In this document: in pieces, positions 1 through 58,454 of the stretch | Layout of the letters: each line of letters opens with the position of its first letter | Numbering within the stretch: the first letter of the stretch is position 1 | DNA from: Agarophyton chilense | Taxonomy: Eukaryota > Rhodophyta > Florideophyceae > Gracilariales > Gracilariaceae | Reading direction: 5' to 3' | DNA length: 64,000 nucleotides | Assembly: GCA_030374765.1 (NCBI GenBank) | Contig: JARGXX010000088.1 | Coordinates: 62,001-126,000 of the forward strand | The notes under the pieces: generated by a model | What the model was told of the DNA's origin: nothing | The model's input: only the letters and a program-made list of their open reading frames with translations | The model's database searches: none | Made by a program: the position numbers and the translations under genes

Positions 1-3000
1 ATCTGGACAAACATCTCACTCATGTGAGGGATATCATGACCAAACTTCGAGATGCCAGTGTCACTCTTAAGTTGAAGAAATGTGACTCCTTCACGGACAC
101 CGTGAAGTATCTCGGCCATGTCATCCGTCCAGGACGTGTTACAATCGAGGAGACTCGTGTTAAGTCACTCAAAGAGGCTAAAGAACCGCAGATGCAAACC
201 GAGCTTCGTTCCTTTCTGGGACTCGCGAACGTCTACCGACGATTCATCCCGCACTTTGCGGACAAGGGTGCACCGTTAAACGCGCTTTTTTGGAAAGGCC
301 AACCACAAAAACTGGACCCCTTCACCCCCGTTCAAACAAAATCTTTCAACTCTCTTATGGATTCCGTCGTCTCCGCCCCGATCCTCTGGTTTCCCAAGCC
401 TGGACGGCCCTTGACCGTAGATACGGACGCCAGCGACTACCAAGTAGGTTGTGCACTGTTTCAAACTGCACCCAATGGAGAAAGACGCCCCGTAGGGTAC
501 TGGTCCCGGTCGCTAAACGTCCACGAGAAAAATTACTCCGTCTCGGAGAAAGAATTCCATGCAGTAGTGTGGGCATTAAAAACGTTGCGCCCCTATCTCA
601 TGGGTAATCATTTCACCGTTTTCACGGACCACGCATCGCTTCGATGGCTACTCTCCAACTTCGGAGCCTTCAGGTTGCTTGATGCGTTGGCGTCTCCGTC
701 TAGCGGAATTTGACTTTGACGTGCAGTACCGAAAAGGATCGTGCAACACCCAAGCCGATGCTCTGTCCCGCCTGGTCACTACTGGCGAAGCACGACCCGT
801 CAAAGACGATGAAATACCCTTCCTTGCAGTGAATGGCGACGACGCTACCATCAACGACGAGGAACGGGACACGGACTCTTCAGATTCCGGTTCCGAATTG
901 GACGACTTTCTTCTCTCGGAAGATTCCGAGAAACCCTTACCAGGGAACTTCGTGCCTATTACTCCAGAGGAGATGATACGGGAGCAATTCGCTGACCCGT
1001 TCTGCGCGAAGGTCCGTGCTCAACTTAATGGAGGAGGTACTTTGCCCTTTCAGGTGAATGACGCCGGATACCTTGTACGGACTGTCGGATCACACCCACA
1101 AATCGTGGTACCACATAACCTCCATTCGAGAGTCTTGCGGTTGTCGCACTACTCCAAACTGAGTGGCCACGTCGGGGGACGGAAACTTTACCTCACCATA
1201 CGCCGTAACTTCTACTGGCCTGCCATGGCAGTGGACTGCTACGCAACGGTGCGGTTTTGTACCGATTGCGCTCGGAACCGTGTCAAACTCCGCCGTCATG
1301 CGACGGATTTGAAGCTGTTTTCAGCTCGCGCTCCCTTGTAGTTTGTGGCCAAGGATATACTCGGTCCCTTCCTTAACATTGAGCGGGATTACAAGTTCCT
1401 ACTCGTAATCACGGATCGCTTCTCCAAGCTGGTCCGGACCGTACCGTTACGGAAAATCTCCGCTATGAGCGTGGGTCAAGCCTTTTTCCTACACTGGGTC
1501 TTCGTCTACGGTCCACCGGTCAACCTCCTCTCCGATAACGGCAGGAGACAGTTCGCCTCTCGTTTCTTCGGGGATGTTTGTCGCATCTTGGACATTAAGA
1601 ACCTGTTCACGACCACTTACCACCCCCAAACTAATGGGCAGGCCGAACGGTTCAACCGGACATTTCTTGCGATACTCCGTTCATACGTTGCAGACCACCC
1701 CAAAGATTGGGACTTTTTCACTGATGCGCTCACTTTTGCGTACAATACGCAGGTGCACAGGACAACTGGATTAACGCCCTTCGAGCTGGTACTGTCCCGC
1801 ACCCCACTGCGCGTGGCGCTGGAACCACAGCCCACGCTGGATACTTTTCCGTCACCGATTGCTTACCCCGAAGCGCGGAAAATTTGGCTCACGAAGCTCG
1901 TTCCCACCGCACAGCGTGTAATGGGCCGATCCTAGGCCGCTTGAAAGCGTGATTTTGATACCAAAGCCCCTCGTTCGCAGACACGTCTCGCCCCCGACGG
2001 TTATGTATTCATCCGCAAGGAGTATTGGAACCCAGAAAAGGAGAAACGTCACAAGCTGTCACCCGTTGCCGCCGGCCACTTTCGGGTTATTTCGGTGGCT
2101 CCGGACACTGTCGTTGTTGACCTCGCTGGTAATCACGAACGCATCTCCCGCGATCGCGCGGTATCGGCTCCTCCACCGCTAACATCCCAACCTACTGGTG
2201 TGACTGCTCCCGTTGAAACGGATTCATCGACCCCCCTACCCCAGGTCGACCCGCGTCTCTACGCGTTACCACACCCATCTCGGGTTTGTCTGACCTTCCG
2301 CTACCCGCAGCGCCCAACCCGCAAGGATTCGTGTCGCGCATTCGTCGCTCCTCCCCAGTCCACCTGACGGACACCAACTCCGGTGCATCGTCTAAGGAGG
2401 GGGAGGCGCCCGACAGGCTTCGTAATCCGGTCAATACCGTCGCTGGGAACGCCGCACCGTCGCGTGTCATTCTTCGCCCATCAGGAGTGCCTGATACCGA
2501 CGTCTTGCACGACTCGACGCAGTCGCTATCCAAGCCTGAGAACGCAGCTGTGGATAACGCCACCAACACTCGCCGAGGTGTCACCACACGTGCAATACGG
2601 AATGCAAATGCGCTCGACGCACTGCAGCCCGATACAGTACGAGTGGACGACGCACCGCCAAGTACCCCGCACAGGGAGGCGGATACATCCACGGCGCCGA
2701 CGCCGGATAGCCAGCCATTGGAACCCTCACTTGACTACACGGAACCTCGCCGTGGGACAGAGAGGTGCGACAGTGCGCCACTGCCTCAGCGAATCTCACC
2801 GCCGATGAGAGCTTCACCACGCCGATCAGTGGAACGACCACCCGGGTTACCCGCTGGTGTGGGCCCTCCAACCGGTGTGGGAAGCTCCGAAACAAGCCCG
2901 GCACTTGGGGAAAATGAACCGCCGAAGTCGGGTCGACATTCTACTCAGCCGAGGACTGCCTTGCGCGCTACACGGTCCGACGGGAGCGAAGCCGCCCAAC

Positions 3001-3293
3001 GGGTGATCACTTCGGTACGCCCTGGCTCAGGACGGTTACCACCCGTAAATAGCGACACCGCCATACGGGATGGCCGGGATGTGTACCGACAAGAGTTCGT
3101 GGTCGGACGCATTTTGGAGCACTCTTACCACCCAAAGAGGTATATCCAATACTTGGTCCGTTGGTACGAGTACTGCCCCGAATGGGATTCAGACGAACCG
3201 ATAGAGCACCTACCTTGGTCAAAGGTGGTACAGTATCATCGTCGTACTGTCACGGCTTTGCCGGCTACCATAGACCGAGCCCAAGTGGGATAA
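1..3293 (+). pseudogene. A1 pol remains: RT, RNase H, integrase, chromodomain
   Basis: The region encodes the C-terminal half of a Ty3/gypsy Pol polyprotein. Visible parts are the end of the RT thumb (LGHVIRPG, about 110-150), the RT/RNase H junction FLGLANVYRRFIP (about 215-255), the RNase H core VDTDAS with a later FTDHASLRWL (about 415-650), the integrase zinc region HYSKLSGH with CTDCARN (about 1150-1290), and the integrase core with DRFSKL, LSDNG and NGQAERFNRT (about 1345-1935). A long Pro/Ser/Thr-rich stretch (about 2150-3080) follows. It ends in a chromodomain (about 3080-3280: VGRILEHSY, YLVRWYEY, EWDSDEPIEHLP), a module that targets insertion to marked chromatin in chromoviruses. 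About four breaks. The layout matches A2 and A3. Confidence 0.85.
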
Positions 3294-3504
3294 GAAGACA
3301 CCCGATGGGGATAAAGTAACAGAAGATCTGGATAAGGACCCTTGGAAGAAGGAGAAGATGCACAGAACACCTGGAGAAGGACACTCAGAAGAAGTGGAAG
3401 AGAAGAAAAAAACAAATACGACATAGACGGAAGCAGTTTACTATTTTCGAAGTTGCTGCACACACTACCGAACAGCGGGATATACTAACCAAGATCAAAA
3501 GGGA
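3294..3504. other. spacer between convergent pol and antisense frame of A1
   Basis: This short non-coding spacer separates the stop of pol (plus) from the stop of the antisense frame (minus). It is strongly purine-rich in the pol sense, with runs such as GAAGAAGGAGAAGATG. The corresponding spacer in A2 also carries pol-sense purine-rich repeats. I see no clear AATAAA on either strand here. Confidence 0.6.
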
Positions 3505-5373
3505 TTAGTTGGAAGAACCCAGATTGCCGTGCGCGCCAACCGAATCGACAGCGGAGTTACTCCCGCCGGTCAGGCGTGCCACGATGGCGTCTCTCATCTC
3601 ACCGATGTCGCCGCTCGCCGCTTGCGCGTTCAGTCCAACACCCCGAAGGAACTGGGAGATCACGACCGCCTTTGGGCGTATGGGAAACTCGATAAATTCC
3701 GGTTCGTCCGGCAACGCCGCCGCCACTGGATCGATGACCACACCTGCGTGAGTTGCTCCCTGCGCCGGCTGCGCCGTAGTATCGGCACCATCGGGATCTC
3801 CAACGTCTTCGATGACCTCGTCGCCACGGTATTCGCCCTCCTCCTCCGGGAGATCATCACCTCCATAGGCGTGGTAGAAGTCATCCGAGTTGACAAACCC
3901 CACGGGGTGCCCGTATGGTATGCCTCGCGGAGCCATCCGGAGTGCCGACGCCTCCGCCTCGGAGATCTCTTGCTGCTCCTATGGGTTAAAGAAGATGAAA
4001 TCTCCCGCCAACGGCGTTCGACGCCCCGGAGACCGATCAGCCCCACCGGCTTCTTGACCACGGCCGCTCTGCCGGACAGGCACGACAGCCCAGTCGACAC
4101 GCCCACTGATGTCGATGATCTCCTCAGCTTCATCAGCGTTATTGAAACCTCCAAGAGGGGGTTGAAGGTCGAGCTGCCGGATGTAACCACGCAAACGCGG
4201 AGGAAGATACCACAGTCGATACTGGTCGTAGGCTTCCCACAAGATGTACGCCGCCGCGCAGACTGCCCATTCGGTTAGGACCACGGACCATAAGCCGGAG
4301 TGCGGATCCTCGATGAGGTACGAGCCCAGATAGGAGACGACGGGAGGCAACTCCACGTAACATACCCGGCACACCTCGACGGAGGACCACCACCCAGGCA
4401 GGGGAACGTACTGTCCGAACTGATAGAAGGGACTAGTCCGGTTTATCTACGTGTTCTGATAAGGGACAAAGAACCCAAAGCGGGACCTGCCCCGACGCTC
4501 CTCGCGGACGAAGTTCTGTAATCACCGATATCAGGACTCACGACGAAGGTGACGGAACTCGGCACGAATGATCGCACGGATCCAGCAGATCGCTTCTTGA
4601 CGCGCCCGCGGTTGACCGCGCCATGCGTAAGTTTCCAACGACGCAAGGCGGTCAAAATAGCCGATCCCACCCTGCGTCCGGTACATCCGTAGGTCGAAGC
4701 CGAACTCGTCGGGGATGGGGTATTGGAAGTTCGCTCGGTTGATCCGTGAGGACCCAATTCGGACGAATACACAATGCGCCTCTTCCGCCGACTCGCGCCT
4801 CCGCCGCAGAATCGCGTGAACGCGAACCGCCACACGGCGTGTCCAGTCCCACGAAGTGATGAGCAAAGCCTGCAGCTCGCCCGAGAGACGCGCATTGCCA
4901 TCAGCATACGCGGCCACGAGTTCTTCGTCGAAGACCGCTGTCGGATGGAACCACGGAGCTCTCCGGAGAATCGCCGTATGTTGACGCGGGTTTAGCCCGA
5001 CGAGTTCGTCGTAACTGGGCCAGGTGTCCTCCGCAGGAGTGAGGTGGCTTGAAGTTTCAACGGGACCCCGGGATCGGCGCGGGGCGGTTGACGAGGCACT
5101 CCCCCGCGGAAGGGGAGCCGAATGGAAACCGGAGAAGTAACCCCGCTGGGGGTTCTTACCACCGTTCATCGGGAGTGCTGGTCGCCGAGGTATCGGGATG
5201 TGGTCGCTGGAAGTCGGCGTACGATGCGGAAGAGCGCTCGATGTTCGAGGAGTGGTTACCGCGTTGTTGCGTTTGTCGTTCGGTGATGCAGCTCTGCCTT
5301 TGACAGTCGAGTGGTCGCTGGACGCGTTACGCGGCTCGCTCTTATGCCGGTTGGACCGTTGCCTCCCCGCCAT
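3505..5373 (-). pseudogene. A1 antisense ORF (family A aORF), function unknown
   Basis: This frame of about 620 codons runs against pol and lies wholly between the chromodomain and the 3' LTR. The start at 5373 (MAGRQRSN) is only 35 bp from the LTR. The product has a disordered Ser/Pro/Thr-rich N-terminus (about 110 residues). A conserved core follows, with WPSYDELVGLNPR, RAPWFHP, TSWDW, FQYPIPDEFGFD, MYRTQGG, WRGQPRARQEA and FRAEFR-like segments, then VELPPVVSYLGS, AYDQYRLWYLPPR and SPGRRTPLAGDF. It ends in an acidic linker and a short helix with FLRGVGL and SGDIGEM. The same blocks appear in order in A2 and A3. No signal peptide, membrane segment or known fold is visible. About three breaks. 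I do not recognise the family. Confidence 0.75.
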
Positions 5374-5396
5374 GTCAACGGCGTGTTCGTCACCTA

Positions 5397-5408
5397 AGGA
5401 GGGGGATA
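5397..5408 (+). promoter_or_regulatory. A1 polypurine tract
   Basis: AAGGAGGGGGATA lies immediately before the TG that opens the 3' LTR. The same tract (AAGGGAGGGGATA on minus) sits at the same place in A3. It is the expected plus-strand DNA primer site for reverse transcription. Confidence 0.7.
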
Positions 5409-6218
5409 TGAAGGAAAATGCCCTTCAGGGGGGTTTCTTCCCAGGACTTGGAGATTTCGCTCGCTTGAGGACTAGCTTGGGCTATGACAAGCTATACTGC
5501 TATTAACTGCTGACGGCCGGTTAGGACCGGAAGTGCACACTGGTGGAACACGTGGACTGCACCGATGCCGATTGAGCTACGCTATCGCTATTTAGGGTCG
5601 ATTTTTCGGGCGCGCGCCCACTTTCAGGGGCCGCGCGCCACACTACTTAGGAGGTTGAGCACTGGTCTCCAGTAAACACCCTCTTGGGAGATCCCAAGGA
5701 GGGAGTCTTGGCTCTGAACTTTTCGCCTTCGGCGCGTCTTCACCGCATACTGCGTGAGCGCCCGTCACACGTTAGTTCATCCACCTGTCTGTCGACCAGA
5801 GTGCTACAACCACCGTGGGTTCATATTTAATCGCCGACACTTGTCGTAGTCTCGCCCCTGTATAGGGTTTCGCCCCCGTTTTCCTCTTGTTCTCCTTTTG
5901 GGCTCTCGTGAGCGGCCGCCTCACTCACCCCGCTCGCCCCCCTCCTACGAGTGTTTCCTCGCTCCTTTCCCGACAATCGCCGTGGTACCGCTCCGCCTAG
6001 GATTGGTCACACCCCGGAGTGTGCCGTGCTCACCTAAACACTCTAGGTATATCCCGCCGGATTGGCCTCGGTCTTACACCCGACTTCGTCGTGCCTTTCC
6101 AGAATGGCTCTGTTTCTGTGCTCCGCTGGGACGCGTCTCCTCCGCCTGAGGCGTGTCTCTCAAGAGAAAAAGATCCCGAACATCTTCGTGGTTTCTCCGC
6201 CCCAAGCGTTGTCCTACA
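5409..6218 (+). repeat. A1 3' LTR
   Basis: About 810 bp, starting TGAAGG after the polypurine tract and ending GTTGTCCTACA. It was delimited by comparison with the 864-bp 3' LTR of A3, which starts TGAAGAG and ends AATTGTCCTACA. The two are similar at the ends and in scattered middle blocks but well diverged. It separates the antisense frame from the interrupted element G1. Small ORFs inside it are not considered real. Confidence 0.75.
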
Positions 6219-9200
6219 CTTTCCAGCATGCAGCATCACCGTCTCTGACGGCCAGGCGTCCATGGAAGCTACAGGAAGATGTGATGATGGTAGCGACGAC
6301 AGCATCGTTTCTCCCCTCCTAGCAGAACGTGCTGCACTCAAAAGCATAGGATAAATTTCTTCAATTAAGTCAGTTAAGCTTGCTGTCGCCCTCAAGAAGG
6401 GCACCGACCCACAGACATTCTTGTTTTCCAGGACTTGGACTGCCCCACGCACGATCTTGCAACTATCCTCTGGAAACCTCGCTCTTGCGAACATTACCTT
6501 TCTTGTCGCCCAGTCCTTCGACACCTCAAGGTGGACACTCACACGCCTCCCGAAAAGAATCGTTTTGCTCTGCAAGGCGCAGACTGTTCCTCAGTTGGAA
6601 ATCCCACCATGGCCAACGCGGGAGGGCACGTCAGCAGACTCATGACGGCAGGCGTTAACCGAACCAGCGAAGCTACCACGATTCCTACTCAGTCTCCGCC
6701 TCCATCAGACCGTTATCGCGTAAACTACAACGATGCATGGAACGCAGAAGACCCCTTTCCCGATCTTTCACTGCTCGACCCAATCGATACAGACCAACAT
6801 GACGCCATACTCAAAGAAACTGATGAAATGATAGAAAAAGCATTAAAGAATGGCATGCAAGACAATCACGCCCAAGAACTGAGAGAGATTGTAGACTCAC
6901 ATCTCAATATTTTCCGCACGTCGCTATCTTCTGGACCAGCGGCCAACATCACACCTCTGAAAATTGAGCTCAGGCCAGAAGCGAAACCAGTCCGCGTGCG
7001 TTTGTGCAACTACTCTCCCTGGGCTTGGGCACCGCTAATCGTACCGAAACCCGGACCCGCTCGATTCTGATTCACCATTGACCTTCGTCCTGTGAACAAA
7101 TACACCATTCGCAATCAGTACCCCATGCCCAACGTCGAGCAAGAGCTGTCAAAACTGGCTGGCTCTCAATAATTTGCTACCTTTGACCTCTCAGAGGGTT
7201 ATTGGCAGCTCCCACTTGACAAAGACTTCCAAGCACTACAGTCCGTTATCAACCCCGATGGCTTTTTCTCACCAACAAGAGTTCTCCACGGAACAACCAA
7301 TGCGACGACTCACCTGCAATCTGCGCTGGCAGGCCTCTTGCCCAAGGACCTTTTGAAGGGGATACTGTACTGGTTGGACGATATACTTCTTCACAGTCCT
7401 ACCGTTGAGGGTCTACTGTTGGGCATACGAAAGCTTTTTTCGTTCTGTGCCAAGCAATTCATCTACCTCCACCCACTGAAGTGCATCCTGTTCTCCAAGA
7501 AAATCAGGTGGTGTGGCATAATCGTCTCAGCCGCAGGAGTTCGATACGACCCCCGCCAGCTCTATGGTCTTCTAGACATGGAAACACCAACCAACGGTGC
7601 ACATCTGAAGCAATTCCTCTGGGCCATGCAATGGCTGAAGACGGGAGTCCCAGACTTTGTCACCCTTCTCACCCCTCTTCACGACCTCATGGAGACGGTA
7701 TGCAAGGCTTCAAGCAAACGAACAAAGTCCGCCGCTACCATAATCATCATTAGAACTGTAGGATGGAACGAGGAACACGCACAAGCATTCAAGAAATGCA
7801 AAGATGTCCTATCAAATCTAATCACTCTTTCTCATCGTGACGAAAACCAACGCCTTTCCGTGTACACAGAGGCCTCGGATACCGTATGGTCTGGTATCAT
7901 CCCATAAATCCCACCGGAGGAACTCAAGAAACCACAAATGGACCAGCCCCACAGCCCACTATCTTTCTGCTCTGGGCGATTCAACAATACACAGCTCAGC
8001 TGGTTCGTGCTCGAGAAGGAAGGATACGCCATTCTGGCCACAATGCAGCGAATGCACTGGCTGGTGGCTATGATCCTCTCTCAATGATCCCAGATCTCAG
8101 CCAATCTTCTACCAGGAAAGTATTGCGCTGGGTCGTTCGATTGAGCTCCTACCCAAAGGACCAGACAAATTGTGGGCGGATCTACTGACTAGATGGTCAG
8201 CGCCACCCACTGTACGGCGCTTGTTCAAGTTCCAGCCCTCCCTTCTAGTTCCGCCTGTGACTTTGAATGGCCTGCAATCACAGAAATTGCAACACAGCAA
8301 GACGAACACCGCTCAACGCGACCAAACCACGTGGTTATTCAAGTCAGAGTATGGAAGACGGCCAAGAATGCCATCTGGATCCCCGATCAAAACAAAGACC
8401 TCCACTTTCGCCTCTTTATCATACCGCACACTGAACCTTCGGGCCATAGAGGTCAACACGCTACTCTGAAAGTACTACAGAAGCATTTTTTATGGAAGAC
8501 AATTTCCCAGGATGTCCGCACATTTTCGCAGTCCTGCATACACTGTATCTCCACTCTTAGCGGCGAGAAGGAACCTCGGCCTTTCGGACCCGCACTACAT
8601 GGAACCGCTCCGAACGATCTCTTACAGTTTGATTATCTAGAAATCGGACGAAGCCGCCCTGGAGAGAAGCACGTCCTGATGCTTCGGGATGACCATTCAG
8701 ACTATAAATGGTTATATTCCTTCCCCAACACAGCCGCGGAAAACGCTGCTCTCTCTATCATCGACTGGTGCGCTGCTTTTGCAGTGCCGAACGGGTTTCT
8801 CTCCGATGGTCCAACCCACTTTCGCAACGAGACTATTCGCTTGGTCTCCAAGGCACTCAAGGTCCTTCACCACTTCACTCTACCTTACACACCATGGAGT
8901 AATGGTGCTGTAGAAAGACTTGTCAAAGAAGTATTGCGTACTTTTTGCGCGATGGTCTCCGAACTGCTAATGGATTTCAAGGAATGGCCGGACCGTTTGC
9001 CAATAGTACAAAGCGCCCTCAACAACTCACCATCAACACACAGAGGAAATGTTGCGCCCGTCACCGAATTCCTAGGAATGGAACCCAGTCCACCGATTTC
9101 AACATTCTTTCGCACCTCCACTCACGAACCAGTAACACTATCAGACGTAAAACGCGAACGTACCATCAACATTCAATCTTTGAAGAGTACTATGGCACAG

Positions 9201-14102: not shown

Positions 14103-14107
14103 GACAG

Positions 14108-14773
14108 TGTAGTATCCGCTCTACTGGAGAGAGCAGACACCTGCCACAGCGTTCGGACTTCCGATGGGTCGCTTGAGGCAAAGGAAAAGAGATGGTAGAG
14201 CTGCAACACCAGCGAGCTGGAAGTGGGGTGTAAGGCCACTACTCCCCAGCGAGGGTGAACAGTGCAACTGTAAAACGTTGATGGAACGTAGGTACGAGAC
14301 GGCTCGTGGAGTGGTTGGGGGCTGATTATCTATTATAGCTCGTCCGGATCTCCGGTTAAGAAATCCTAAGCGACAAACAGTATAGTCACGATGCCCATGT
14401 TGTCTCCTTTACTTGGAGTCGGCGCTCACCTCTGGTACACTATATACTGTGTGCCAGGGTGAGTGCCCAAATAATACGTAAATAATACCCAGTGGTCAGC
14501 CACTTCGCCAAACCACTGTATGGGTATGGTTCCTAAAGGGCGTCTAGCTACAATGGGTAGTAAAAACAGCCACGTGGATCGCCACTACATGCGCCGTTGC
14601 AAGCCACTCCACTCGTGATACCACGTGTTCCAACAATGTACCCGGCCTCCTGGCATCCTACGCGGTGTGCCGTTTCATATCACAATGCTGATGATATCAC
14701 TCACTTATGAGTTCCAACCGCGACTTCGCGAAAAACCAGCCTATCGGATTCCCCGACATAGTAGAATACTACA
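14108..14773 (-). repeat. A2 3' LTR (666 bp)
   Basis: It begins TGTAGTATTC and ends GGATACTACA in element sense. It pairs with 23982-24697. Most of the length difference comes from a block near 14590-14620 that is longer in the other LTR (around 24470-24545). A related but decayed LTR piece is found in A4 at about 54700-54930. Confidence 0.9.
14432..14457. promoter_or_regulatory. palindromic TATA box in A2 3' LTR
   Basis: Arms CTGGTACAC and GTGCCAG-type flank a TATATA centre. The copy in the other LTR (24306-24331) is a perfect 9-bp-arm palindrome, CTGGTACAC / GTGTACCAG. Because it is symmetric it offers a TATA box on both strands. The antisense frame starts about 490 bp downstream on the plus strand. 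The promoter role is inferred. Confidence 0.45.
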
Positions 14774-14786
14774 TACCCCCCTCGTT
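14774..14786 (-). promoter_or_regulatory. A2 polypurine tract
   Basis: AACGAGGGGGGTA on the minus strand abuts the element-sense start of the 3' LTR, the expected place for the plus-strand primer. Confidence 0.65.
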
Positions 14787-14945
14787 AAGCGCGAACCATG
14801 GGGGTGGGTCGCAAGAAGCGTTTATACGCAGTCGGACCGGTGTTCCGGGTACTCATCGTCATCATGACTTCCTCGCTGCCCGACCAACTCTTACAGTTCT
14901 CAACAGCATTCTGTTCCTCATCACTCTTCAGCTCGATCTCTCGGG

Positions 14946-16629
14946 ATGAATCTGAACGCCCGGTCCAACCCGTTTCAGCCCTCCTCTGAGGATGTGCCTT
15001 CTGGGGCTCCGTATAACACTGCTGGTTATGCGTCGCAGCCTACTTCTCAACTCGGTCCATACCGTTCGTTCCCCACACCGTACACCGTATTCCGGTCGGT
15101 ACCGTTACCTCAGCCAACCGTGGCTCCGATGCCGAACGCGGCTTACGTCGCCTCTGCGGGTGTGATTCGAGCTCCTTCTCGTCGTGCTCAGCGGAGCTAC
15201 CCGCAACCTGCGGATTTCTATGGAGGAGATCCTCTCGACAACGTTGAACTTTTCGCGCAAGCGCCCTGGTTTGATCCAGTTGCTTTCCGCGATGACGCGT
15301 TGATATAGCATTATGTACACGGTTGGTACTTCCCTGACGGTATTACAGAACACGCGATATATAGCGACGACTGGGCGAGCCATATTGCTTTGCCAGACAA
15401 CGCGATTGCGCGATATTCAACCGAAACCTTGTCCAAAGCCCGTACGCGGTTCACCAAGCTGATTTACCAGCGTCTTCACCTATTCATCAGTACGGTTCCC
15501 CTCCCGCAGGACTGGGAACTAGATACCTGGAAAGCCCGTACCGACGGTGAAGGTTACTCGTATATCGAGACACTCGTTGAGGTCGATGTTCGCGGTTAGC
15601 GCGGTGTGCGCGGTGTGCGTGATGCAGCTCTCTGCGTTCAGCAACCTCTTCTCCGTGCGAAGTTCCGCTTCCTTCGAATGCGGGACATTCCTTATTGGGA
15701 TTATCCCCGTTTGGAACGTCGTACTCGATCACGTTTGGGCTATTGGGTGCCGTATCAAATGATAGAGATCGACCGCATCCGGAGGAACGCGCGCTTCGGG
15801 CGCTACATTGGTATTCCGGAGCATTGGGCGGCGATCGAGAGTCCTCGTAGTTGCCCTGTGGAGCTCCCACCGGCGATCTCCTACATCGGGTCCGCGTCGT
15901 TTAACGACCCGTTCTCGGGATATTGGACAGTGGTTTATACCGAGTTTATCGCCAAGATGGCCGTCTTCCTCCTGTGGGATGCTTATCATACCTTTAGAGC
16001 TTGGTACATGTCGCCCACGGCGCGAAAGTATGCGAGAGAACTCGATCTTTCCCTTGTCCTGGGATCCCGTGCGAACCATGCCGACTTCCTCCATCTTGTG
16101 GATTTGATCGACAGTGTCGATTGGTCTGGAGTGCCAGCTGATCAATCTGCTCGCGGAACCCATGCAAGACACTACGACCATTCTCCTGGACGAACAGCAA
16201 GTGCTAGAGATTTCGTTTGGTACGACCCCTGGACGCGCCAGTTGATCACCTCCGAGCAGGCTCGCTTTCTTCGGGAGAACCCGCGTGACATGCAACCAAA
16301 CCAGCTTACTGGATACGTGTACGATGCTACTCCATCCGAGAACGGAGAGGAACCGTATGAGGAAGCGCCGGGAGCTGAGGCTGAACTCGGTTACGAGGAC
16401 GAGTCAGAGCTGGCAGGCGTAACGACTTCCGTCGATCAATCCGCAGCGGCGGGAGTTTGCTCAAGAGAACTTTCATCGGTTTACACAACAACAGAGTGCA
16501 GTGCCGCTCGAAGATCCAGGCTTGGATCCTCTGAGGCAGTTCCTCTTAGATGCGGGCTTTCCCGTGGACCAAGTTGAGGGTGATCGCGCACAGCTTCTTG
16601 CGAACCTGCATGCTCGCACGTCTCTTTGA
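14946..16629 (+). pseudogene. A2 antisense ORF (family A aORF)
   Basis: This frame of about 560 codons runs opposite to gag-pol and is enclosed by the A2 LTRs and target duplication, so it belongs to the mobile unit. The start chosen is MNLNARSN at 14946, 172 bp from the LTR. Blocks shared with A1 and A3: APWFDP, YWVPYQMIEIDRI, GRYIGIPEHW, VELPPAISYIGS, FNDPFSGYWTVVYTEF, AYHTFRAWYMSP, ARELDL, VDWSGVP, SPGRTASARDF. It ends in an acidic segment and a tail with FLLDAGFPVDQVEGD, which A4 also keeps. An AATAAA at about 16682 follows on the same strand. Rich in Arg, Tyr and Trp; no known domain. About three breaks. Confidence 0.8.
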
Positions 16630-16739
16630 TGATCCTAGAAAAGACTCCTAGTCAACACCCTTGTGGTTGTATCTTGATATCAATAAAACTCCGGTGACTT
16701 CGTGTCTTCACGTCCCCTTCTTATCTTCTAGTCTTCATC

Positions 16740-16850
16740 TCTTCTCGCTTCTCGAGTTCTTAACTTCTTCTTCTCGCTTCTCGAGTTCTTAAATCCTTCT
16801 TCTCGCTTCTCGAGTTCTTCAATCCTATCTCTCGCTTCTCGAGTTTGTCC
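16740..16850 (+). repeat. tandem repeat in A2 convergent spacer
   Basis: Four units of about 29 bp, each with the core TTCTCGCTTCTCGAGTT, start near 16742, 16771, 16799 and 16828. In pol sense they are purine-rich and contain XhoI-like CTCGAG palindromes. They fall between the ends of the antisense frame and pol. A degenerate counterpart is at about 55140-55215 in A4. Confidence 0.75.
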
Positions 16851-16988
16851 GAGGTGATAATCAGTAAATGTCCTTTGCTTGCGTGTCTTAACGTTTCCTG
16901 TTCATGATTTCTTGTTTTCTTCTCGCCTTTCGAATTTTTACTACCTTTGTAGCCCATACTTAGAAATGGGATGTGTCCATGAGCCCGA

Positions 16989-19900
16989 CTATCGAGGAGT
17001 CGATCTCCCTGGGGAGTGGTAATCGCATGCGTCGATGATATCGCACGAGTTGCGAACGGGGATATGAGCTATAGGTTCCCACGTATCCACTTCCGGAGGA
17101 AAACCGTACCAACGGACTTGATACAGTAGTTCTCTAGTATCTTCATGCTCGCCATATTCACATTTGCGATCCCTAACATATTTCTGGGCGTTTCCCAATG
17201 CTTTCGCTGTTGGCGCGAGACTCCTGTTAACAGGTTTTAAATGCCTTAGGGCTGACGCAAGCGTCTCTGTGTTAGCAGTCTCAGAGTCGCTAAGCGTTCG
17301 CTCGTCGACTAACTGTCGTTCTGCCCGTAGGGGCAGTGTACTCATTCCTTGAGAACCTTTCTCAGATAAAGAGCTATCCTGTTTTCCAGGTTCCATAGAA
17401 GCGTACTTCTTGCTACTTCTCAATTCCATTCGTGGATGAACTTCCTTCGGTTTATCCGATTCTGACCGCTGTTGGGTGGACGGTGGTGCTTGCACCACGA
17501 CAGGAGGCGATACCTCTTCTTCTTCCTGCCCACTAGGGATGGGAACCGGTATCGACGGAACAGCGAGTGGCGCTTCACCTGACGGTTCAGCCTGAAGCGG
17601 CAAAGGCGCGTTTTCGCGTGCACTCGATTCCAAGTCCTTGGGGCCGAAGTCCAAAACATCTTTCCTACTTGCACGTTCCATTTATGTACTTACGGCTGTG
17701 TGTGTGCCACGGGGCATATCCCGATACTTCGGAAGCTGTCCGTGATTGGCGTACGCAACCGCCGGCGGTGGGATATCAGGAGCTTTCTCCTCCGCTCGAG
17801 CCATTGGTGGCGGTTCACTCTCCCCAGAGTCACTTGGGCTTTTGCTTCGACGTTCCGTCGCACTTGCCTCCTTAGTTCTACCAGATACCTGGACTTCCAA
17901 TTGCGGGTCAGGCGCGACTTCAACGCGATCGCGCGATACACGTTCAACGTCCTCACCTGTCTCGATGACCACTGTGTCTTCATCAAGGTCACCCACTTTG
18001 AAGGGTCCAGCCGCTATCGGCAACAACTTATGACGAGATTCTTCCTGTTTGTCCGGTCTTTCAACTCGCACGAAGACGTGACCTCCTACTCGGATTGCCG
18101 GATTTCCTCTTCGCCTTCTGGCGTCATAGTTTCGCTTATAGCCAGCTTGCGTCTTTGATAACTCCTTAGCGGCTTGTTCCACTCTGGTCTTTAGGTCATT
18201 CCTCCATTTCAGATGGTACTTAGCCGGGGTCGGCGCGTCCAATTCTGTCTCGTCGTCGAGCGTAACCGGTAAAACCGGAGGGTTACGTGAGAGCACGAGG
18301 TCGAACGGTGCCGTCTTTGTTGAGGTATGCACTTGCGTATTGTACGCGTAGCACAGAGTATCTGTAAACATGTCCCATTCTTTCGGGTGGTCCGCGATGT
18401 AGTGTCGTAATGCTGCTATCAGCGTGCGGTTGAAACGCTCCACCTGACCGTTGCATTGCGGATGATAGGTCGTGTTAAACACGTTTCGAATGCCCATAAT
18501 GCGGCAAACATTCTGAAAGAACTTCGCAACGAATTGCTTCCCATTATCTGATAACAGAACTTCTGGTGGTCCGTATATAAATACCCAGTGTTTGATAAAC
18601 GCCTGTGGGATTACGGTTGCGGTTATCCGCTTCGGCGGCACAGTCCGCACTAGCTTCGAGAAGCGGTCGGTGATTACCAATAGGTAGCGATAACCTCGCC
18701 TTGAGCGAATCAATTCCCCTAGGATGTCGATACTGACGTATTGTAAAGGCGCTTTCGCCTGGAATAACTTCATCGGTTTCCGCTTCCTGTAAAGCTTCAC
18801 GCGATTCTTTGCACATGTTGTACACAACCTCACTGTAGCATGGCAGTCCATTGCCAAAGTAGGCCAGTAAAAATCTCTTCTTAGAGTCATGAACAACTTC
18901 GTTCCTCCTGGATGACCAGACAGCCTGCTGTAGTGTGCCAGATGGAGTACTCGACTCTTCAAGACGTGTGGAATCACGATTTGATCATGCTTTTCGACAT
19001 GTCTTAACAGTATTCCTCGTGAATCGAGTGAAAAGGGGAGCTCCTCCCCCCCGTTAAGGCGAGAGCGTATCGACGCAGAAAACGTATCGGCGTGTTGCTC
19101 ATTGAGGAGCTCAGTGCACGAGAATCGCTCGAGTTGAACTGAAGGGTCAGTGTCTGCTAATGCAAGGAACGGGTCTGCATCCGAATAATCATCAAGGGTC
19201 TCTTGTTCCTCTTCTTCAAAAGATGGTGAATGGGTCTCCATGTAGAAGCAAGGTATCTCTTCATCGATTTCGCCTTGGGTTTCGCCCAGTGTTTTGAGTC
19301 GCGATAGCGCGTCAGCTTGGACATTGGCCAATCCCTTCTTATACTTCACTTCGAACTCGAATTCAGAAAGGCGTAAGCGCCATCGTGAGAGACGACCAGA
19401 CGGGTATGTAATGGACAGTAACCATCGTAGAGACGAATGATCCGTGTTGACGGTAAAACGTTCTCATTGGAGATACGGTCGCAATGTGGTTAGAGCCCAA
19501 ACGACTGCAAGGCATTCCTTTTCTGAAACTGAATACTTCTTCTCAGCTGCGTTCAGCGATCTTGACCAGTAACCAATGGGTTTGCGTTCACCATCAGGGT
19601 GTGTTTGAAAAAGAGCACACCCTACTTGGTACTCGCTAGAGTCACTATCCACTGAGTACGGCAGGTTGGGGATGGGCAGCACCAAGGCTGGGGCTGTGAT
19701 AATCTTTGTCTTCAGCGTGTCGAACGCTTCCGCTGCAGCTTGTCTGAATTGTTCCAGCTGTACTGGTTGTCCTTTACGCAGCTTTGCGTTGAGCGGTGCC
19801 GCTATATGCGAGTATCGCGGCACGAATGGTCGGTAGACGTTGCAAAAGCCGAGGAAAGAACGCAACTGCTTCTGTGTCGACGGAGATTGTACTTCGCGGA

Positions 19901-21514
19901 TAGCCGCTGTTTGTGCCTCTTAAATGTCAATCCGTCCCGGCCTGATCACATGTCCTAAGTACCGGACGGTGCCAGCGACCCATTCGTATTTCTTGAACTT
20001 CAAGGTGATACCTGCGCTCTGTAGTGCTTTGAGGATCTCCTCGACATGCCATAAATGGCTTTCCACATCCTGGGAAGAGATGATCACATCGTCCAAATAG
20101 ACTAAACAAGTCTTCCACTTGTATCTTGAGAGCAAGATGTCCAGAGTACGCTGGAAAGTAGCCGGGCATTCGTTAAGCCAAAGGGCATCCTTTTGAAACG
20201 ATAGAGACCGGCGTGACACGCAAATGCAGTTTTATCTTGGTCTTCTTCCGCTACAGGCACCTGCCAATAGCCAGAGTTGGCGTCCAACGTGGCGAACACG
20301 TTCGCTTCTCCTAAGCTGCCAATACATTCGTCCATTCGAGGCAACGGTTATGTATCTCGAAGTGTGACTGCGTTCAGTTTTTCGATAATCGATACAGAAT
20401 CGTAAAGAACCATCAGGTTTTGGAACCAGCACAACTGGTGAGGCCCAAGAAGATTGAGCTGCTTCGATTACTCCTTCTTCCAGCATTTTGCTGACATTCT
20501 CCTCCTCGATTTGGCGAGTTCGCGGTCCCGCTCTGTAGGGTGGTTGGGAGATGGGTCATGACCCTGGGACCAAATCAATGTGGTGTTCTGTAGCGGAGAT
20601 CTCTCCTAGTTTTCCACTCCACATGGATGTATACTTCTTCAGCATAGACCTGATCTTCGTTCTGTAGTGTTTTGACACATGTGCTAAGTCTAGCTCATCG
20701 ACCAGGCTCTCTGGATCCTTTGCCGTTTGCAATTGATCTCCAGACGGGTTTTGCAGTTCTTCGTCTGTGTCACCGACATGGGTTAATCCCAATACTTCTG
20801 CAGTAGAAATATGAGTAGGGACCAACACTGTGAAATGAGGCAAAGCTGTTGCAACAACCTGATTCTTCGGTATCTGATAATCGTTATCGGTGAAGTTACT
20901 CACTAGTATCCAAAAGAGGCTACCAGGATCAACCTGAACAATGCCGTTAGCGACTAGCAATCCACGGGATTCGTAAATCCGAGTATTCGGTTGAATTACC
21001 ACGAGTCCGTGTCGTTCTGTACTTACTTGAACCCAAGTTTGGGTTTGCGCCTCCAGCATGGCACTCTTCGCTACTCGAGTCCTCGGCGAGACACGTCCTC
21101 GGGATTTCCCGTATTCCATAAATTGTGGAAGTGGAGGTGCTTCAGAGCAACGACGCATTGGCTTGCGAACAATTGGTACCATTGATCCATCATCTAGTTC
21201 GACTAGTTTTCTTCGCGGGCGAATGGCTTCGACAAACTTGTAGGAATAAAGTCAGTAGGAGCGAGCTCCGATTCCCGTATAAAGTTCGGACCAGCACCTG
21301 TGTTCAGGATAGTCAATCGACGAGATAACAGATTCCTGTCAGAGCCGATGTCGGCATAGACCTTATAGTTTCTTTTAGACACTGCCATGAGGTACCTTTC
21401 CTGTTTTGACGGACAAGTATAAGGTCTCAAAGAACGATGTAACTCACAGTCAAACTGTACTCGCCTTCCGTCCGGCGGATTGATTCCGTAAGGCGGAAAT
21501 TTGGGAGGCCTCAA
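16989..21514 (-). pseudogene. A2 pol remains: protease, RT, RNase H, integrase, chromodomain
   Basis: In minus-strand order: retropepsin with LNTGAGPNFI (about 21260-21300), a linker to about 20560, and RT (about 19920-20490) with VVLVPKPDGSLRFC, FATLDANSGYWQV and YLDDVIISS. RNase H (about 19464-19870) shows FLGFCNVYRPF and VDSDSSEYQVG. Integrase (about 17700-19350) shows HYSRLSGHPGG, CTTCAKN, VITDRFSKL, LSDNGKQF and NGQVERFNRT. A charged Pro-rich stretch and a chromodomain follow (about 16989-17200: YQVRWYGFPPEVDTWEPI). Same architecture as A1 and A3. Several breaks. Confidence 0.85.
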
Positions 21515-21612
21515 GAGAATCTTGGGCCTCCAAGCGCTGGAGCAGGGAGGCGAGCTCTCCCTGGTCAGAACTACGGGATCGACTAGTGCCGACCCCCTAG
21601 GGGCTCCCTCAC

Positions 21613-23832
21613 TTAGTTTTCCGGTTGCACCGGCTGATTCGCCTCAAATGTGCCTCTTCCTACCGGGGTTCCGGGCTGTAACAATTCAGCATTCTGAGCA
21701 ACCGTCTTGTCCGTCCGGCGCATTGGTGTCTGAGAAAACCAACTTTTGGCTTTCCAATACATGCCCGCCGGTACGCGGCTCCTTTCCTCTTCGGAGAGTG
21801 TTTCATTATTTGTCATGATACGACTCAGATCCTTTGCAGGAAGCGTGCATTCTGCACTCAAATGGTGTCTTTCATAACATGAATAACATATCAAACCGTC
21901 ACGACGGTTGGTCAACATAGGTTGTGAACGGTATGCCGTGCGAGTATCGACCCATCCGGGTTTCCCGTTATTAAAACCTTCTTGTGGAGGCACCGTGTAG
22001 GGACGGTACATAGGGCGACGGCCCTCCATAGCCATTAGAGCTTCCTCGTCCTGAGACTCCGAGTGTGGGAGATTCACTGTGGGTACAGAAGAGTCCGTAT
22101 ATTCCATTAAATGGACCGCCTCCTCATGCGAGTCACTCCCTTTGAGTGCCAACGACGAATCTCGCGAGTCAACTGGAGATTCCAGATGTAGCAGTTTGCT
22201 GCGCTGATTAACTCTGGAGGAGATCTTCTCCTTACCTATTGAGGTTCCAAAAGCCACTGAACGACGGGGGCTACCTCGCGCTCTGACCGCGTCTCCTTCA
22301 GCTTTCGCCAACTGAACTAACTCCAAAAAGGAGACTCTTCCATGCGTCTCTCGATATCGAGCTACCAACGACTTGATGCTCGGGTCCAGCCCGTCGATGT
22401 ACAAAGTAATCTTGTCCTCCGTCGAGTGGACGTTTCCACAGCGGACTGAAGCTTTGCTAAGCCTTGAGCTGTACTCAGCTTCGCCCTCCTCAGGCTTTTG
22501 GGTCACATCCCTTAGGGCCAGGATCGCCTGACGTATCGCGTTTGATATCGCGTAACTGCGCAGCAAATACTGCACCGCCTCTGGCCATGAGGTAACGCCG
22601 CCTACATCGGCTGTCAATGATCCGCATACGGAACGATATTGCTCTAAAGAAAAACCCTTCAGGAAGTGTGGTAAAGACACAAATGCCTGTGTTTCACTCA
22701 TCTGTAGAGTGTCTGCTTCGGCAACGAATCGAGTGAGAAACTCGATAACGAGAATGGGGGTTTCCCCGTCAAATGTTAAATCATTAAGGCCGATCTTCAA
22801 TCGTTTGATGTGATCCTTCACCTTCGCGGTTTCGCGTCCTGAGCGCTTCTTGCTCTTCACCTTCAGACGGTAGTACCTGTAATTCAGAAGCTTCCGATAG
22901 AGAGGATTCGTGCACGGGAGCACCTTCAATCTTCTGTAAGGTGAGCCTTTTTTTCTCATTAACCACGAAGACGTGTTCTTCTTCCGAGATCGGGCCCTTC
23001 GATGACCATCGTCAGTGTTGTCGTCATCTGACGTATCTGAGTCATTACAATCATCAGTGCTGGAACTGAAACCCTCCGTACTTGACGATTCATCACTCGA
23101 ATCACGTGCGGACTTCCGCTTCTTACGTCGTGACTTCGACTTCTTCGAACGAGCTTCCTCCAAAGGAGCTCTTTCCTCTTCCAGCACGACTGGTTTAGCA
23201 GCAGTCTGCGCATGAACTGCCGCCTCCAGGCGTTCTAAACGAGGGTTAACTCGAGTGAGGACTTCCTCTACATCCACGGTTAAGCCGGGTAGCGCATCGG
23301 CCGTATTCCCGTACCTCTCCAGTAGATGGTTCAAATCCTCACGTTCTGTTTTCACTGATGCAGGTAACTACTTCCCATCGTCTTGACGAACGAGTGCTTG
23401 ATGCGCACTTCGTAATTGTTCGACATCAGCGATAAGAGCAGCGATCTGCGATTCCAACGCAACCATACGCACACGCGAAGCGCTTGACTCAGACTTGAGA
23501 CGACACACTTCCCTGCGCAAATCATCGTCTTCTTGAGATCCTACGACCTCAGGGTCAACTACGGCTTCTGTGGTGGGCGCGACTGCTGCTGCCACAGGGG
23601 CCGGTACATCCGAGAGATCTCATTCATCATTCACCGAGCGTGAGCGCGACATCGCTTGACGATACAGCCGCTCTCCGACTTCAACAGATGAGGCGAGCCT
23701 CGGTTTCGGGGGTGGTCCCGCAGGACCGGGGCGACCAGTACTCGACTGGTTTCGGGTCTTCGGCATCCTAGACCAAACCTGAGTCCAGGTGCGAACCAAA
23801 TGGGGTCTTCGACTTCTCGACCACGTGTTCAA
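21613..23832 (-). pseudogene. A2 gag remains
   Basis: A Gag-like region between the 5' LTR and the protease. The first part (about 23368-23832) has a heptad-like segment of about 60 residues, LRREVCRLKSESSASRVRM, suggesting a coiled coil. Then comes an acidic/Ser-rich stretch with SSTEGFSSS and DNTDDGH, and a helical capsid-type core (about 22300-22800) with ETQAFVSLPHFLKGF and ARYRETHGRVSFLEL. One Cys-His knuckle-like motif CYSCYERHHLSAEC follows (about 21850-21890). It would package the element RNA. About two breaks, though one boundary may be a natural gag/pol junction. Confidence 0.7.
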
Positions 23833-23963
23833 CCACGATGAATTCCGCAGTTGCCGGAGGTGGTTCGATAAACAATAACTGTAGTGATTCCACTTCTTCC
23901 AAGTATCGATATCGATTCAACGTTCCAGGAACGAATTGTTCAGTGCAGCTGACCACAGTGGTT

Positions 23964-23979
23964 CTAAGTCGGGAGACCA
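23964..23979 (-). promoter_or_regulatory. A2 primer binding site
   Basis: TGGTCTCCCGACTTAG on the minus strand starts two bases after the 5' LTR end. It begins with the TGG expected for pairing to a tRNA CCA end. I cannot assign the tRNA; it is not the TGGTATCAG site of initiator methionine tRNA. Confidence 0.6.
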
Positions 23980-23981
23980 CT

Positions 23982-24697
23982 TGTAGTATCCGCTCTAACG
24001 GAGAGAGCAGATACCTGCCACAGCGTTCGGACTGCCGATGGGTCGGTTGCGGCGAAGGAAAAGGGATGGTAGAGCTGCAACACCAGCGAGCTGGAAGTGG
24101 GGTGTAAGGCCACTACTCCCCAGCGAGGGTGAACAGTGCAACTGTAAAACGTTGATGGAACGTAGGTACGAGACGGCTCGTGGAGTGGTTGGGGGCTGAT
24201 TATCTATTATAGCTCGTCCGGATCTCCGGTTAAGGAATCCTAAGCGACAAACAGAATAGTTACGATGCCCATGTTGTCTCCTTTACTTGGAGTCGGCGCT
24301 CACCTCTGGTACACTATATACTGTGTACCAGGGGGAGTGCCCAAATAAATATATAAATAATACCCAGTGGTCAGCCACTTAGCCAAACCACTGTATGGGT
24401 ATGGTCCCTAATGGACGTCTAGCTACAAAGGGTAGTAAAGCCCTCCACGTGGATCGCCACTATATGCGCCGTTGCCAATATGGCATTCCCCTAGGAAGGG
24501 TCGAAACTATGCGCGCGCCGTGGTAAGCCACTCGACCCATGACGCCACGTGTTCCACTAAGACATTCTGCCTCTAGGCATCCTATGCGGGATGCCACTTC
24601 ATATCACAATTCTGATGATAAAACTCACTTATGAGTTCCAACCGCGACTTCGCGAAAACCCAACCTATCGGATTCCCCGACATAGTAGAATACTACA
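23982..24697 (-). repeat. A2 5' LTR (716 bp)
   Basis: Pairs with 14108-14773 and has the same ends. It carries the perfect palindromic TATA region at 24306-24331. A short ORF inside it (from 24631) is also partly present in the other LTR and is treated as chance. Confidence 0.9.
24306..24331. promoter_or_regulatory. palindromic TATA box in A2 5' LTR
   Basis: Perfect inverted arms CTGGTACAC / GTGTACCAG enclose a TATATA-containing centre. In the 5' LTR it can drive gag-pol. The copy in the 3' LTR is placed to drive the antisense frame. Inferred from symmetry and position only. Confidence 0.5.
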
Positions 24698-24702
24698 GAC
24701 AG

Positions 24703-33253: not shown

Positions 33254-33417
33254 TGTCGGCCTCTGTTTGGGGCTGTGTCCACGTGTGACGCGGACGCAGC
33301 CCCTCGCGAGCTGAAATATCAAAACCTTCCTGCGAGCGGTGGAATTGGTGCGGGGAGGGGACAAGAAAGACAACGAAAAGAAAACAGAGGGTACGCTTGC
33401 CCGTAACGAGCCTGACA
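33254..33417 (+). repeat. W1 5' LTR
   Basis: 164 bp, TGTCGG...CTGACA, pair of 39573-39736. Very short for a gypsy LTR. No clear TATA box; GAAATATCAAAACC is the only AT-rich patch. Confidence 0.9.
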
Positions 33418-33434
33418 TGGTACCGCATCCAAGG
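33418..33434 (+). promoter_or_regulatory. W1 primer binding site
   Basis: TGGTACCGCATCCAAGG abuts the 5' LTR with no gap and begins with TGG. The matching tRNA is not identified. Confidence 0.65.
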
Positions 33435-33449
33435 TCTTCAAATACGAAG

Positions 33450-38081: not shown

Positions 38082-38303
38082 AGGATGAGCAGACAGGTGA
38101 GCAAACGGAAGAAGGGACGAAAGAAGACCTAGTATATTGAGAAGTTGCTCTCATCGAGCGGGTTCAGAGCCATAAAGCTTGAGCTGATGTCTGTGGGCAG
38201 GCGGGCTTTGCGAAGGGGACATGTGGAACATCTAATTGTAGCATTGCATGACGCCGATGTACAGCGATGCCTTAGCATATGGATTCTACATCTATCAATG
38301 AAG

Positions 38304-39116: not shown

Positions 39117-39572
39117 AGCGGAAGGCGGGACGGTTCAAGCGACGCAGCGCAGGGGGAGCGAAGCGCAGACGTGAGCAACCGGGCGCGGACAAACCGCAAC
39201 ACGGGAGCGAGCGAACGAGCGCGATGCGCGGACCAGGCACGGAAAACGAGAGGACGCGATGCGCGAAGAAGGCGCGGAAAACCGACAAAGCGCGGAAAAC
39301 CGACAAAGCACGGACAAAGCGCGAGAGAGGCGTGAGCAGGAGCGCGAGCAGTGCGCAGGCTACGATGTGTGAAGGACAAGGCGAGGGAGAGGCGACGGCG
39401 CAAGTGTCAAGCAAGCGTTGCGCTATTTACAACTATAGCACGCGATCGCAGGACGCTTGGCGCGAATAATTGCCCCCCAGCAATTTTGAGACATTGCTGG
39501 AGGGATTGCACCGTGACAGACCTCGACCCCACTCGCTACGCCACCGTGTGGCGTAGTTTGAGTTGTGGGGCG
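39117..39572. other. W1 3' untranslated region: tandem repeat and hairpin
   Basis: GC-rich non-coding DNA upstream of the antisense frame. A 17-18 bp unit GCGCGGAAAACCGACAAA occurs about two and a half times near 39279-39320. A hairpin with arms GCCCCCCAGCAA / TTGCTGGAGGG (39473-39483 with 39494-39504) and a 10-base loop lies 70 bp before the LTR. TTGTGGGGCG at 39563-39572 is the polypurine tract candidate. Arg-rich ORFs here look like composition artefacts. Confidence 0.5.
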
Positions 39573-56626: not shown

Positions 56627-58454
56627 ATGGCAGCTCGTCATGATAAGAGCGCGTCCGACACCGGGTCTCCGGAAACCAACACACCTTCACCAAGGATCCC
56701 ACGCCAGCTCTTCGCATCCGATTCCTACCACAGCACACCAACACGCACCATGTCCAGCCCCGACCGTCATAACACATCCGCGACTCCCGCTCTTGGCGGT
56801 TCCACTGTTTTCCGGTCCGTGCCCCACCCTGGGGATGGTACCAACCTCGCGTACGAAGACCGCCGTATTGGCGCCCGCTTTCGCGGACAGGCGGACCCAC
56901 TGCAGTGGCCGACCTACGACGCCCTTGTGGGTGCGAATCCGAGAACTCGGCATGGCTCCGCGAGGTTGCGGTATGCGCCTTGGTTTCACCCATTGGCTGC
57001 CCGCGACGAGGATTTGATCCAATCCTACACCGATAATTCGGAGATGCTCCCGGGCGACCTGCCCGGCGTGGTGACCATGTCCTGAGATTGGCGTAATCGT
57101 ATCTTCATCCCGGTACACCACATACTCCGCTAACGCGGTGAATCCTCTGCGGAGGCTCAAGCCGCGCTTGTGCGGATCGCTTATCTCCGGCACCATCGGG
57201 CGCCTTTCGAGTTCCCGATACCGCCAGAGGTCGAATTCGACGTCCACCTTTACCGCACTCGCGGGGAAAAGTCGTACTGTGACCGTCTTAACGGATTGGA
57301 AACCCTCGCTTGGAGGGGCACACCGATCGCTCGGCAAGAAGCCCTTTGCTGGGCACGACCGATTCTTCGGGCAGAGTTCCGCTACCAACCGCGGCAGTCG
57401 CGCTCGAACATCCTTCAGAACTTCATCCGCGATGAGCGGCGTTGGCGGGCCCGGGCCGGGTATTTCGTACCGTACCAGAACACGGAGATTGAGCGCATCG
57501 CGCCTGCTCACCGACGTGGTCGGTACGTCAGTCTCCCAGACTGGTGGTCTCCTTGGAGGCGTGCTGGGGTTGCTTCATTGAGCTGCCCCCAGTCTTCACC
57601 TATGTAGGGTCGTCGTTCTTGAACGATCCCCAGTCGGGGTGGTGGTCCGTCGTGGTAAGCGAATGGGCCGTCCGCACTGCGGCTTTTATCCTCGCTGAGG
57701 CGTACGACCAATACCGATTGTGGTACGTGCCACCGCGTGTGCGGGCTGCGATCCGCCGTTTGGACATGCGCATCCCCCTCGGGGGCGAGGCGAACGAAGA
57801 AGAGATGCTGGGCCTCCTCGATTTTGTGGAGGGGGTCCAGTGGGATGAGGTCCCGCTGGAGAACTCCCAACGCATTCAACCGCGTCGCGGGTCTGGCCCC
57901 GGACTCGGGAGGAATACCGCGCTAGCGGGGATGTCATCTACTTCGACCCCTGGAAGTACCACGAGATCAGCCGCGAGGAAGCGGAAGCCAACCGGCATGC
58001 GCCGCGTGAAGTCCCGGCCGACCACCCGCGAGGGTATGTCGACTCGAGCGACTATTACCGCGGCTATGCGGATGGTGACCCGATGGTCGACAACGAACCG
58101 GGGGATCCGGGTTACGCTCCGATGGAGGATGACGAGTCCGGCGAGGCCGGTGAGGAGTCCGTTGAATACGGTGGTGCAGCTCCATCCGGGGCTGCTGATG
58201 CCGTGCGAACGGATTCCTATCCGACTCCATCGGTGGCGGGCCCGCCCGCAACTGCCGCCGGCGCGGAGCGGGGCGAGGTCATCGCGCGCTTCCTACGGGA
58301 GGTGGGGCTTCGCCCTTCCGAGATCTCGGGTGATGTGGCCGCCATGCCGGATGCCTTAGCCAACCGCCTGGGCGGTGCTCCACCTCGTGCGGAGGAAGGA
58401 CCGGAGCTTCCGGTAGAATGTAGGGCGGCGCCACTAGGGCGCCCTTGCCAGTAG
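56627..58454 (+). pseudogene. A3 antisense ORF (family A aORF)
   Basis: About 610 codons opposite to pol; start MAARHDKSAS at 56627, 47 bp from the LTR and similar to the A1 start. Ser/Thr/Pro-rich N-terminus, then LQWPTYDALVGANPR, YAPWFHPLAARDEDL, FEFPIPPEVEFDV, YRTRGEKSY, LETLAWRGTPIARQEALCW, RRWRARAGYFVPYQNTEIE, IELPPVFTYVGSSF, DPQSGWWSVVVSEW, AYDQYRLWYVPPR and LDMRIPLGG. An acidic region (EDDESGEAGEESVEYGG) leads to FLREVGLRPSEISGD. AATAAA follows the stop within 10 bp (about 58461). It is the GC-richest and easiest copy to align with A1. No known domain. A few breaks. Confidence 0.8.

Follow-up and report, generated by a model that had tools for sequence, protein, structure and literature searches.

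The locus analysed here raises the question of why several Ty3/gypsy retrotransposons of the red alga Agarophyton chilense carry a long reading frame on the strand opposite to pol, and whether this frame is a gene or an accident of the sequence around it. We have examined one window of 64,000 nucleotides (G000:C88:62001-126000; the assembly has 80 Mb in 135 contigs), in which the elements A1, A2 and A3 hold the frame and A4 keeps a remnant of it (Table 1). The frame is almost certainly a real gene, which in this gracilarioid alga codes for an accessory protein of a group of chromodomain Ty3/gypsy retrotransposons; what its product does can be stated with less assurance.

Table 1. Positions, within the window, of the antisense gene copies and of the elements that carry them.
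Feature	Position	Strand	Details
A1 C-terminal pol frame	2217..3290	+	convergent with the antisense gene; sub-threshold Pfam Chromo, 19.2 bits (cut-off 25.1)
A1 antisense gene	3505..5373	-	ATG 5373-5371, TAA 3507-3505; stops between 4447 and 4533
A1 3' LTR	5409..6219	+	limits approximate
A2 element	14108-24697	-	14103..24702 with the 5-bp target duplication GACAG on both sides
A2 3' LTR	14108..14773	-	TGTAGTAT...ATACTACA; about 86% identical to the 5' LTR
A2 antisense gene	14946..16629	+	ATG 14946, TGA 16627-16629
AATAAA, possible poly-A signal	16682..16687	+	beyond the stop codon of the A2 antisense gene
A2 pol: RNase H end, integrase, chromodomain	16992..19463	-	Chromo 24.3 bits (cut-off 25.1)
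A2 gag frame	21616..23367	-	Pfam Retrotrans_gag
A2 5' LTR	23982-24697	-	about 86% identical to the 3' LTR
A4 remnant (tail of the antisense gene)	54928-55207	+	matches A2 16508-16790; remainder missing
A3 antisense gene	56627..58454	+	ATG 56627; stop of the last frame 58452-58454; split over several frames
A3 pol frames, reverse transcriptase to chromodomain	58737..62498	-	Chromo 26.9 bits, above cut-off

A2 is a complete, old element, the LTR ends of which carry 8-bp inverted repeats. It has the features of a chromodomain (chromovirus-like) Ty3/gypsy retrotransposon: two LTRs, a target duplication, gag, reverse transcriptase with RNase H, and integrase, with Pfam matches above the cut-offs for Retrotrans_gag, RVT_1, RT_RNaseH_2, Integrase_H2C2 and rve. 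A chromodomain stands at the C-terminus of pol in A1, A2 and A3; among the three pol tails the Pfam cut-off for Chromo is passed in A3 alone, the matches in A2 (E 3e-5) and A1 (E 0.001) lying below it. The borders of the A1 3' LTR were set in two ways, the start by analogy with A2, directly after the purine run at 5396-5406, and the outer end at the point where genome copies cease to align.

In A1, A2 and A3 the antisense gene occupies the interval from the end of pol to the 3' LTR and converges with pol, which is the aORF-3R arrangement. The distance from its ATG to the LTR is 173 nt in A2 and about 36 nt in A1, where the LTR border was drawn by analogy with A2. The first-pass annotation had placed one long frame in each of these copies: start and stop codons were located at exactly the positions given there and a start-to-stop gene is present in all three, but each copy is broken by stops or frameshifts (in A2 by in-frame stops at 15306 and 15597 and by a late frameshift). 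It was also right in assigning the tail of the gene to A4, where the tail directly abuts the LTR fragment 54712-54925. A sense frame of 283 codons (window 3427-4275, plus strand) overlaps the antisense gene in A1 and in several A1-type copies; it appears to be a side effect of the antisense frame.

Searches of the alga's own genome revealed many copies of the gene. At least 78 places of the A2 type (86-99% identity), at least 132 candidates of the A1 type (at least 133 matches, with the first half of A1 as query) and at least 75 places of a third subfamily (49-52% identical to P0020) were found; since their identities to the queries differ, the three lists are taken as different places, the overlap having been judged without a scripted check. 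With P0008 as query at least 83 candidates and at least 161 matches were obtained. Though all three window copies are broken, genome copies without stops exist: counted by hand, 18 of the 78 listed matches of the A2 type (four of these being identical copies) and 43 of the 75 listed for the third subfamily are free of stops.

We have fetched 70 loci, namely the top 30 (A2 type), 20 (P8 type) and 20 (A1 type) of the search listings, and the C-terminus of pol lay downstream on the opposite strand in 30/30, 16/20 and 17/20 of them, respectively, as expected from the position opposite to pol, between chromodomain and 3' LTR, that had been proposed for the window copies. Five of the 70 loci had no pol match and in two the best pol match was elsewhere; the A1-type loci extend less than 500 nt beyond the gene, and pol misses there carry little weight. 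Approached from the pol side, 150 A2-like tails were examined, of which at least 58 had one of the listed antisense matches at the expected place, not more than 3 kb away; the true share is higher, because the A2 of the window itself was scored as a miss; among these 150 tails and the matches listed no pair in any other geometry was found within 3 kb. An AATAAA follows the stop codon in all 30 A2-type loci, in 5 of the 20 P8-type loci and in none of the 20 A1-type loci.

That the antisense protein has been under selection was evident from comparisons between subfamilies, in which all six frames were evaluated on DNA alignments. When an A2-type copy was compared with one of the P8 type, the antisense frame had dN 0.30 and dS 1.74, its differences were distributed over the three codon positions as 155/134/318, and it contained 4 stop-bearing codons versus 21-41 in the other five frames. 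Between A1 and A3 of the window the corresponding values were dN 0.52, dS 1.68 and 217/214/339, with 9 stop-bearing codons versus 14-35 in the others. Since dS is saturated, or nearly so, between subfamilies, we rely on the codon-position counts as the firmer measure. The other frames showed more stops and dN above dS, with the exception of the mirror frame (dN 0.33 and dS 1.03 for A2 type against P8 type, 0.58 and 1.06 for A1 against A3), which has its third positions in common with the antisense frame and in which dN stays below dS. Codon alignments agreed with the six-frame comparison.

Within the subfamilies, variants found in two or more copies were contrasted with single-copy variants by Fisher test, leaving out copies more than 99% identical to one already kept (19/20 copies retained for the A1 type, 27/30 for the A2 type, and 20/20 for the P8 type, the latter over 378 codons only). 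Single-copy variants look neutral in all three subfamilies, with replacement to synonymous counts of 644:255 (A1 type), 523:202 (A2 type) and 520:194 (P8 type) and a neutral expectation of 0.68-0.69 to 0.26-0.28, as in dead copies. Shared variants lean to the synonymous side in the P8 type (209:126 versus 520:194, p 0.0007, in the 378-codon stretch) and in the A1 type (123:77 versus 644:255, p 0.006); the excess at third positions is significant in the P8 type only (p 0.004; A1 type p 0.23, A2 type p 0.57). The selection on the protein suggested by the first-pass annotation is thus seen between subfamilies and also in the shared variants of two of the three. Inside the A2 type the shared variants have no such skew (147:63 versus 523:202, p 0.54) and replacement and synonymous changes stand as under neutrality, a pattern that had been named beforehand as speaking against selection; we read it as free decay after a recent burst. 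As far as the sequences can tell, the antisense protein is under purifying selection over the life of the lineages, after which each inserted copy decays freely.

The product is about 480-620 amino acids long. Its N-terminus is rich in Ser, Thr, Pro and Gly (33-50% of the residues in 8/8 proteins) and is followed by a conserved core and by a tail with two predicted helices. A motif F-x-[STL]-x-P-[LH], which was defined after inspection of the alignment, is carried in the N-terminus by 8 proteins out of 12, among them several closely related ones, and is missing from the other 4; in shuffled N-termini it appeared in 0-2.6% of the trials. No strongly hydrophobic, membrane-like stretch was detected in any of eight proteins (best 19-residue Kyte-Doolittle mean 1.13-1.45). 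The better structure model (P0016, 24 rows) is mostly of low confidence (mean pLDDT 58), with blocks between residues 281 and 440 averaging 65-95 and residues 521-550 reaching 92-93, where two helices (518-529 and 541-554) and a loop are predicted. Comparison of the product with Pfam, PHROG, PDB and known folds gave no match above cut-off, which bears out the initial impression that it is unlike known families. For a tail of HeH, SAP or Ish1 type no profile match exceeded the curated cut-off, and only the predicted shape points there. The Pfam Ish1 profile matched this tail below threshold in one of ten proteins (P0007, residues 510-536, E 0.09, 13.5 bits versus a cut-off of 26.6), and five isolated tails gave other matches only, likewise sub-threshold.

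The conserved blocks on which the gene had first been recognized proved to be genuine, as relatives of the same layout were found with E down to 1e-174. In protein searches the antisense protein matched A. chilense proteins at up to 91% identity, one genome copy being 99% identical to A. chilense P0002 and another 100% identical to P0008 over residues 1-363. Among the matches listed by three protein searches were also relatives from further datasets and from Gracilariopsis chorda (BWQ96_08668, BWQ96_03215 and BWQ96_10156), the latter known from proteins alone; the most distant of the relatives listed, P0012 and P0020-P0022, share 35-44% identity with the A1 and A2 types. The three G. chorda proteins take three separate places in a tree of 23 rows, forced by starred branches, although the placement of P0016, which is a long row among these three, is unsure. 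The family is therefore probably older than the split of Agarophyton and Gracilariopsis, or was passed between the two genera. Searches of phage records, of prokaryote genomes and of viral contigs yielded no relatives. By pol as well as by the antisense protein, A1 and A3 are closer to each other than to A2: the integrase pieces of A1 and A3 are 62-68% identical and their antisense proteins 59%, the corresponding values for A1 and A2 being 52-60% and 37% (genome copies stood in for the A1 and A2 antisense proteins).

Antisense genes of LTR retrotransposons have been described mainly from flowering plants, with unknown function, according to PMC7264820 and PMC11963269, and the antisense frames of plant elements mentioned by the first-pass annotation are indeed documented there. 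Its suggestion of an undescribed system did not hold in this form, as genes in antisense orientation between pol and the 3' LTR are already on record from plants and a fungus in the same two papers. The plant Retand elements are non-chromoviruses, reported from flowering plants only, and their antisense ORFs code for TRP28 (Transposase_28, PF04195), which is predicted to bind DNA. The elements studied here differ in having a chromodomain in pol and a red alga as host, and their antisense protein is not a member of the TRP28 family by Pfam, since scans with E up to 1 or 5 gave no PF04195 match in it. PMC7264820 describes antisense ORFs between pol and 3' LTR for maize Grande (gene23) and rice RIRE2, that is, in the same interval as the red-algal gene; the Grande product is nuclear and is transcribed from a promoter upstream of the gene. 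The review further reports an antisense ORF in this position in Boty of Botrytis cinerea, a non-plant element like ours, yet of a fungal host. In our three protein searches no plant protein at E 1e-3 and no match named as fungal was among those listed. What appears to be new is the antisense protein family together with the red-algal chromodomain elements as its carriers. No paper on this gene in red algae was found by title or start of abstract among the openly licensed PMC papers listed; LTR elements of a relative are counted in PMC5970526, in the available part of which the word antisense is absent.

How might such a gene be expressed and what might it do? The start codon is close to the LTR, and because of this an LTR-driven antisense transcript is the simplest reading; we consider it likely that transcription is driven in this way. 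The antisense mRNA would start within the 3' LTR or at its border, from a promoter firing backwards, and would end in the short stretch where the gene converges with pol. With less certainty, the product would be soluble and probably nuclear, with a flexible N-terminus carrying the F-x-[STL]-x-P-[LH] motif and a folded core. The C-terminal helix pair might bind nucleic acid or a partner, which is a guess from the predicted shape, because most of the model is of low confidence and without a fold match. Like the antisense or accessory regulators of retroviruses, such a protein could tune the element's own cycle, acting on transcription, on the export of RNA or on how the integration complex gains access to chromatin. 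A nuclear regulatory role, suggested by layout and shape and with the plant genes serving by analogy only, is tentative and somewhat less probable than not. For the explanation as a whole, that is, a selected antisense accessory gene, LTR-driven and probably coding for a nuclear regulator of the element's cycle, we have a slight preference.

The regulation might also be turned against the element itself, the antisense protein limiting it as a copy-number control or silencing-related factor, aided by antisense RNA that overlaps the element transcript. Convergent genes in many copies would permit a dose-dependent effect, and dsRNA regulation has been raised for plant antisense ORFs in the review PMC7264820; but the selection seen is on the protein, something that control by RNA alone would not require, and the element has risen to high copy number, so that we regard self-limitation as unlikely. 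No more favoured, and if anything a little less so, is the opposite function, in which the product would work against silencing by the host, for instance through binding of small or double-stranded RNA derived from the element. Elements with convergent transcripts might need such a factor and the predicted product, soluble and with a tail that possibly binds, would suit it, but similarity to a known family is missing in Pfam and PHROGs. An Env-like or particle protein coded backwards is quite improbable: the gene does occupy the place of env in retroviruses, but no membrane-like stretch showed in the hydropathy of the eight proteins examined, no viral fold was matched, and the env-like genes treated in PMC7264820 are sense. 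That the frame is a chance or shadow frame, with the sense strand or the repeat as the conserved item, is hardly credible, since in spite of the sense frame overlapping the gene in several A1-type copies the constraint is stronger in the antisense than in the sense frames and, the mirror frame excepted, the other frames have the excess of stops and of dN given above.

Returning to the selected, LTR-driven accessory gene, its layout is the same as that of HBZ of HTLV-1, where antisense transcription begins inside the 3' LTR (PMC11963269, and for the HTLV antisense promoter PMC7264820); no sequence kinship is claimed, and the promoter in the red-algal element is inferred only. It is conceivable, and in our estimation rather doubtful, that red-algal retrotransposons evolved an HBZ-like layout independently, with a regulator belonging to a protein family of its own, expressed in reverse from the 3' LTR and retained across the split of the genera. 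A conserved, unrelated antisense protein in red-algal chromodomain elements, with measurable selection, many copies and several subfamilies, shows the arrangement outside the green plants, and opens to experiment the general question of how a gene on the opposite strand benefits an LTR element.

The window holds a second gypsy element (33254-39736), which is young, with 164-nt LTR pieces 99% alike and pol on the plus strand. Between its pol and 3' LTR lies a minus-strand frame at 38307-39134, for which Pfam and PDB gave no match above cut-off. In the alga's own genome 49 matches to this frame were found, down to 28% identity over one region and many of them stop-free; two copies stand in open frames of 471 codons, with an extra middle part that is absent from the window copy. 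The frame may be a second, unrelated antisense gene, and if a second gypsy family does carry one, antisense accessory genes would be a recurrent means of self-steering in LTR elements. The only PF04195 match in the genome (G000:C115:1611170-1611286, plus strand) falls below threshold (20.2 bits versus a cut-off of 26.2, E 0.05) and sits away from the family of antisense genes described above; the window stretch that matches this region had no clear TRP28 pattern by eye. The match is located just upstream, on the same strand, of C115:1611363-1611713, which is a match to the second antisense frame.
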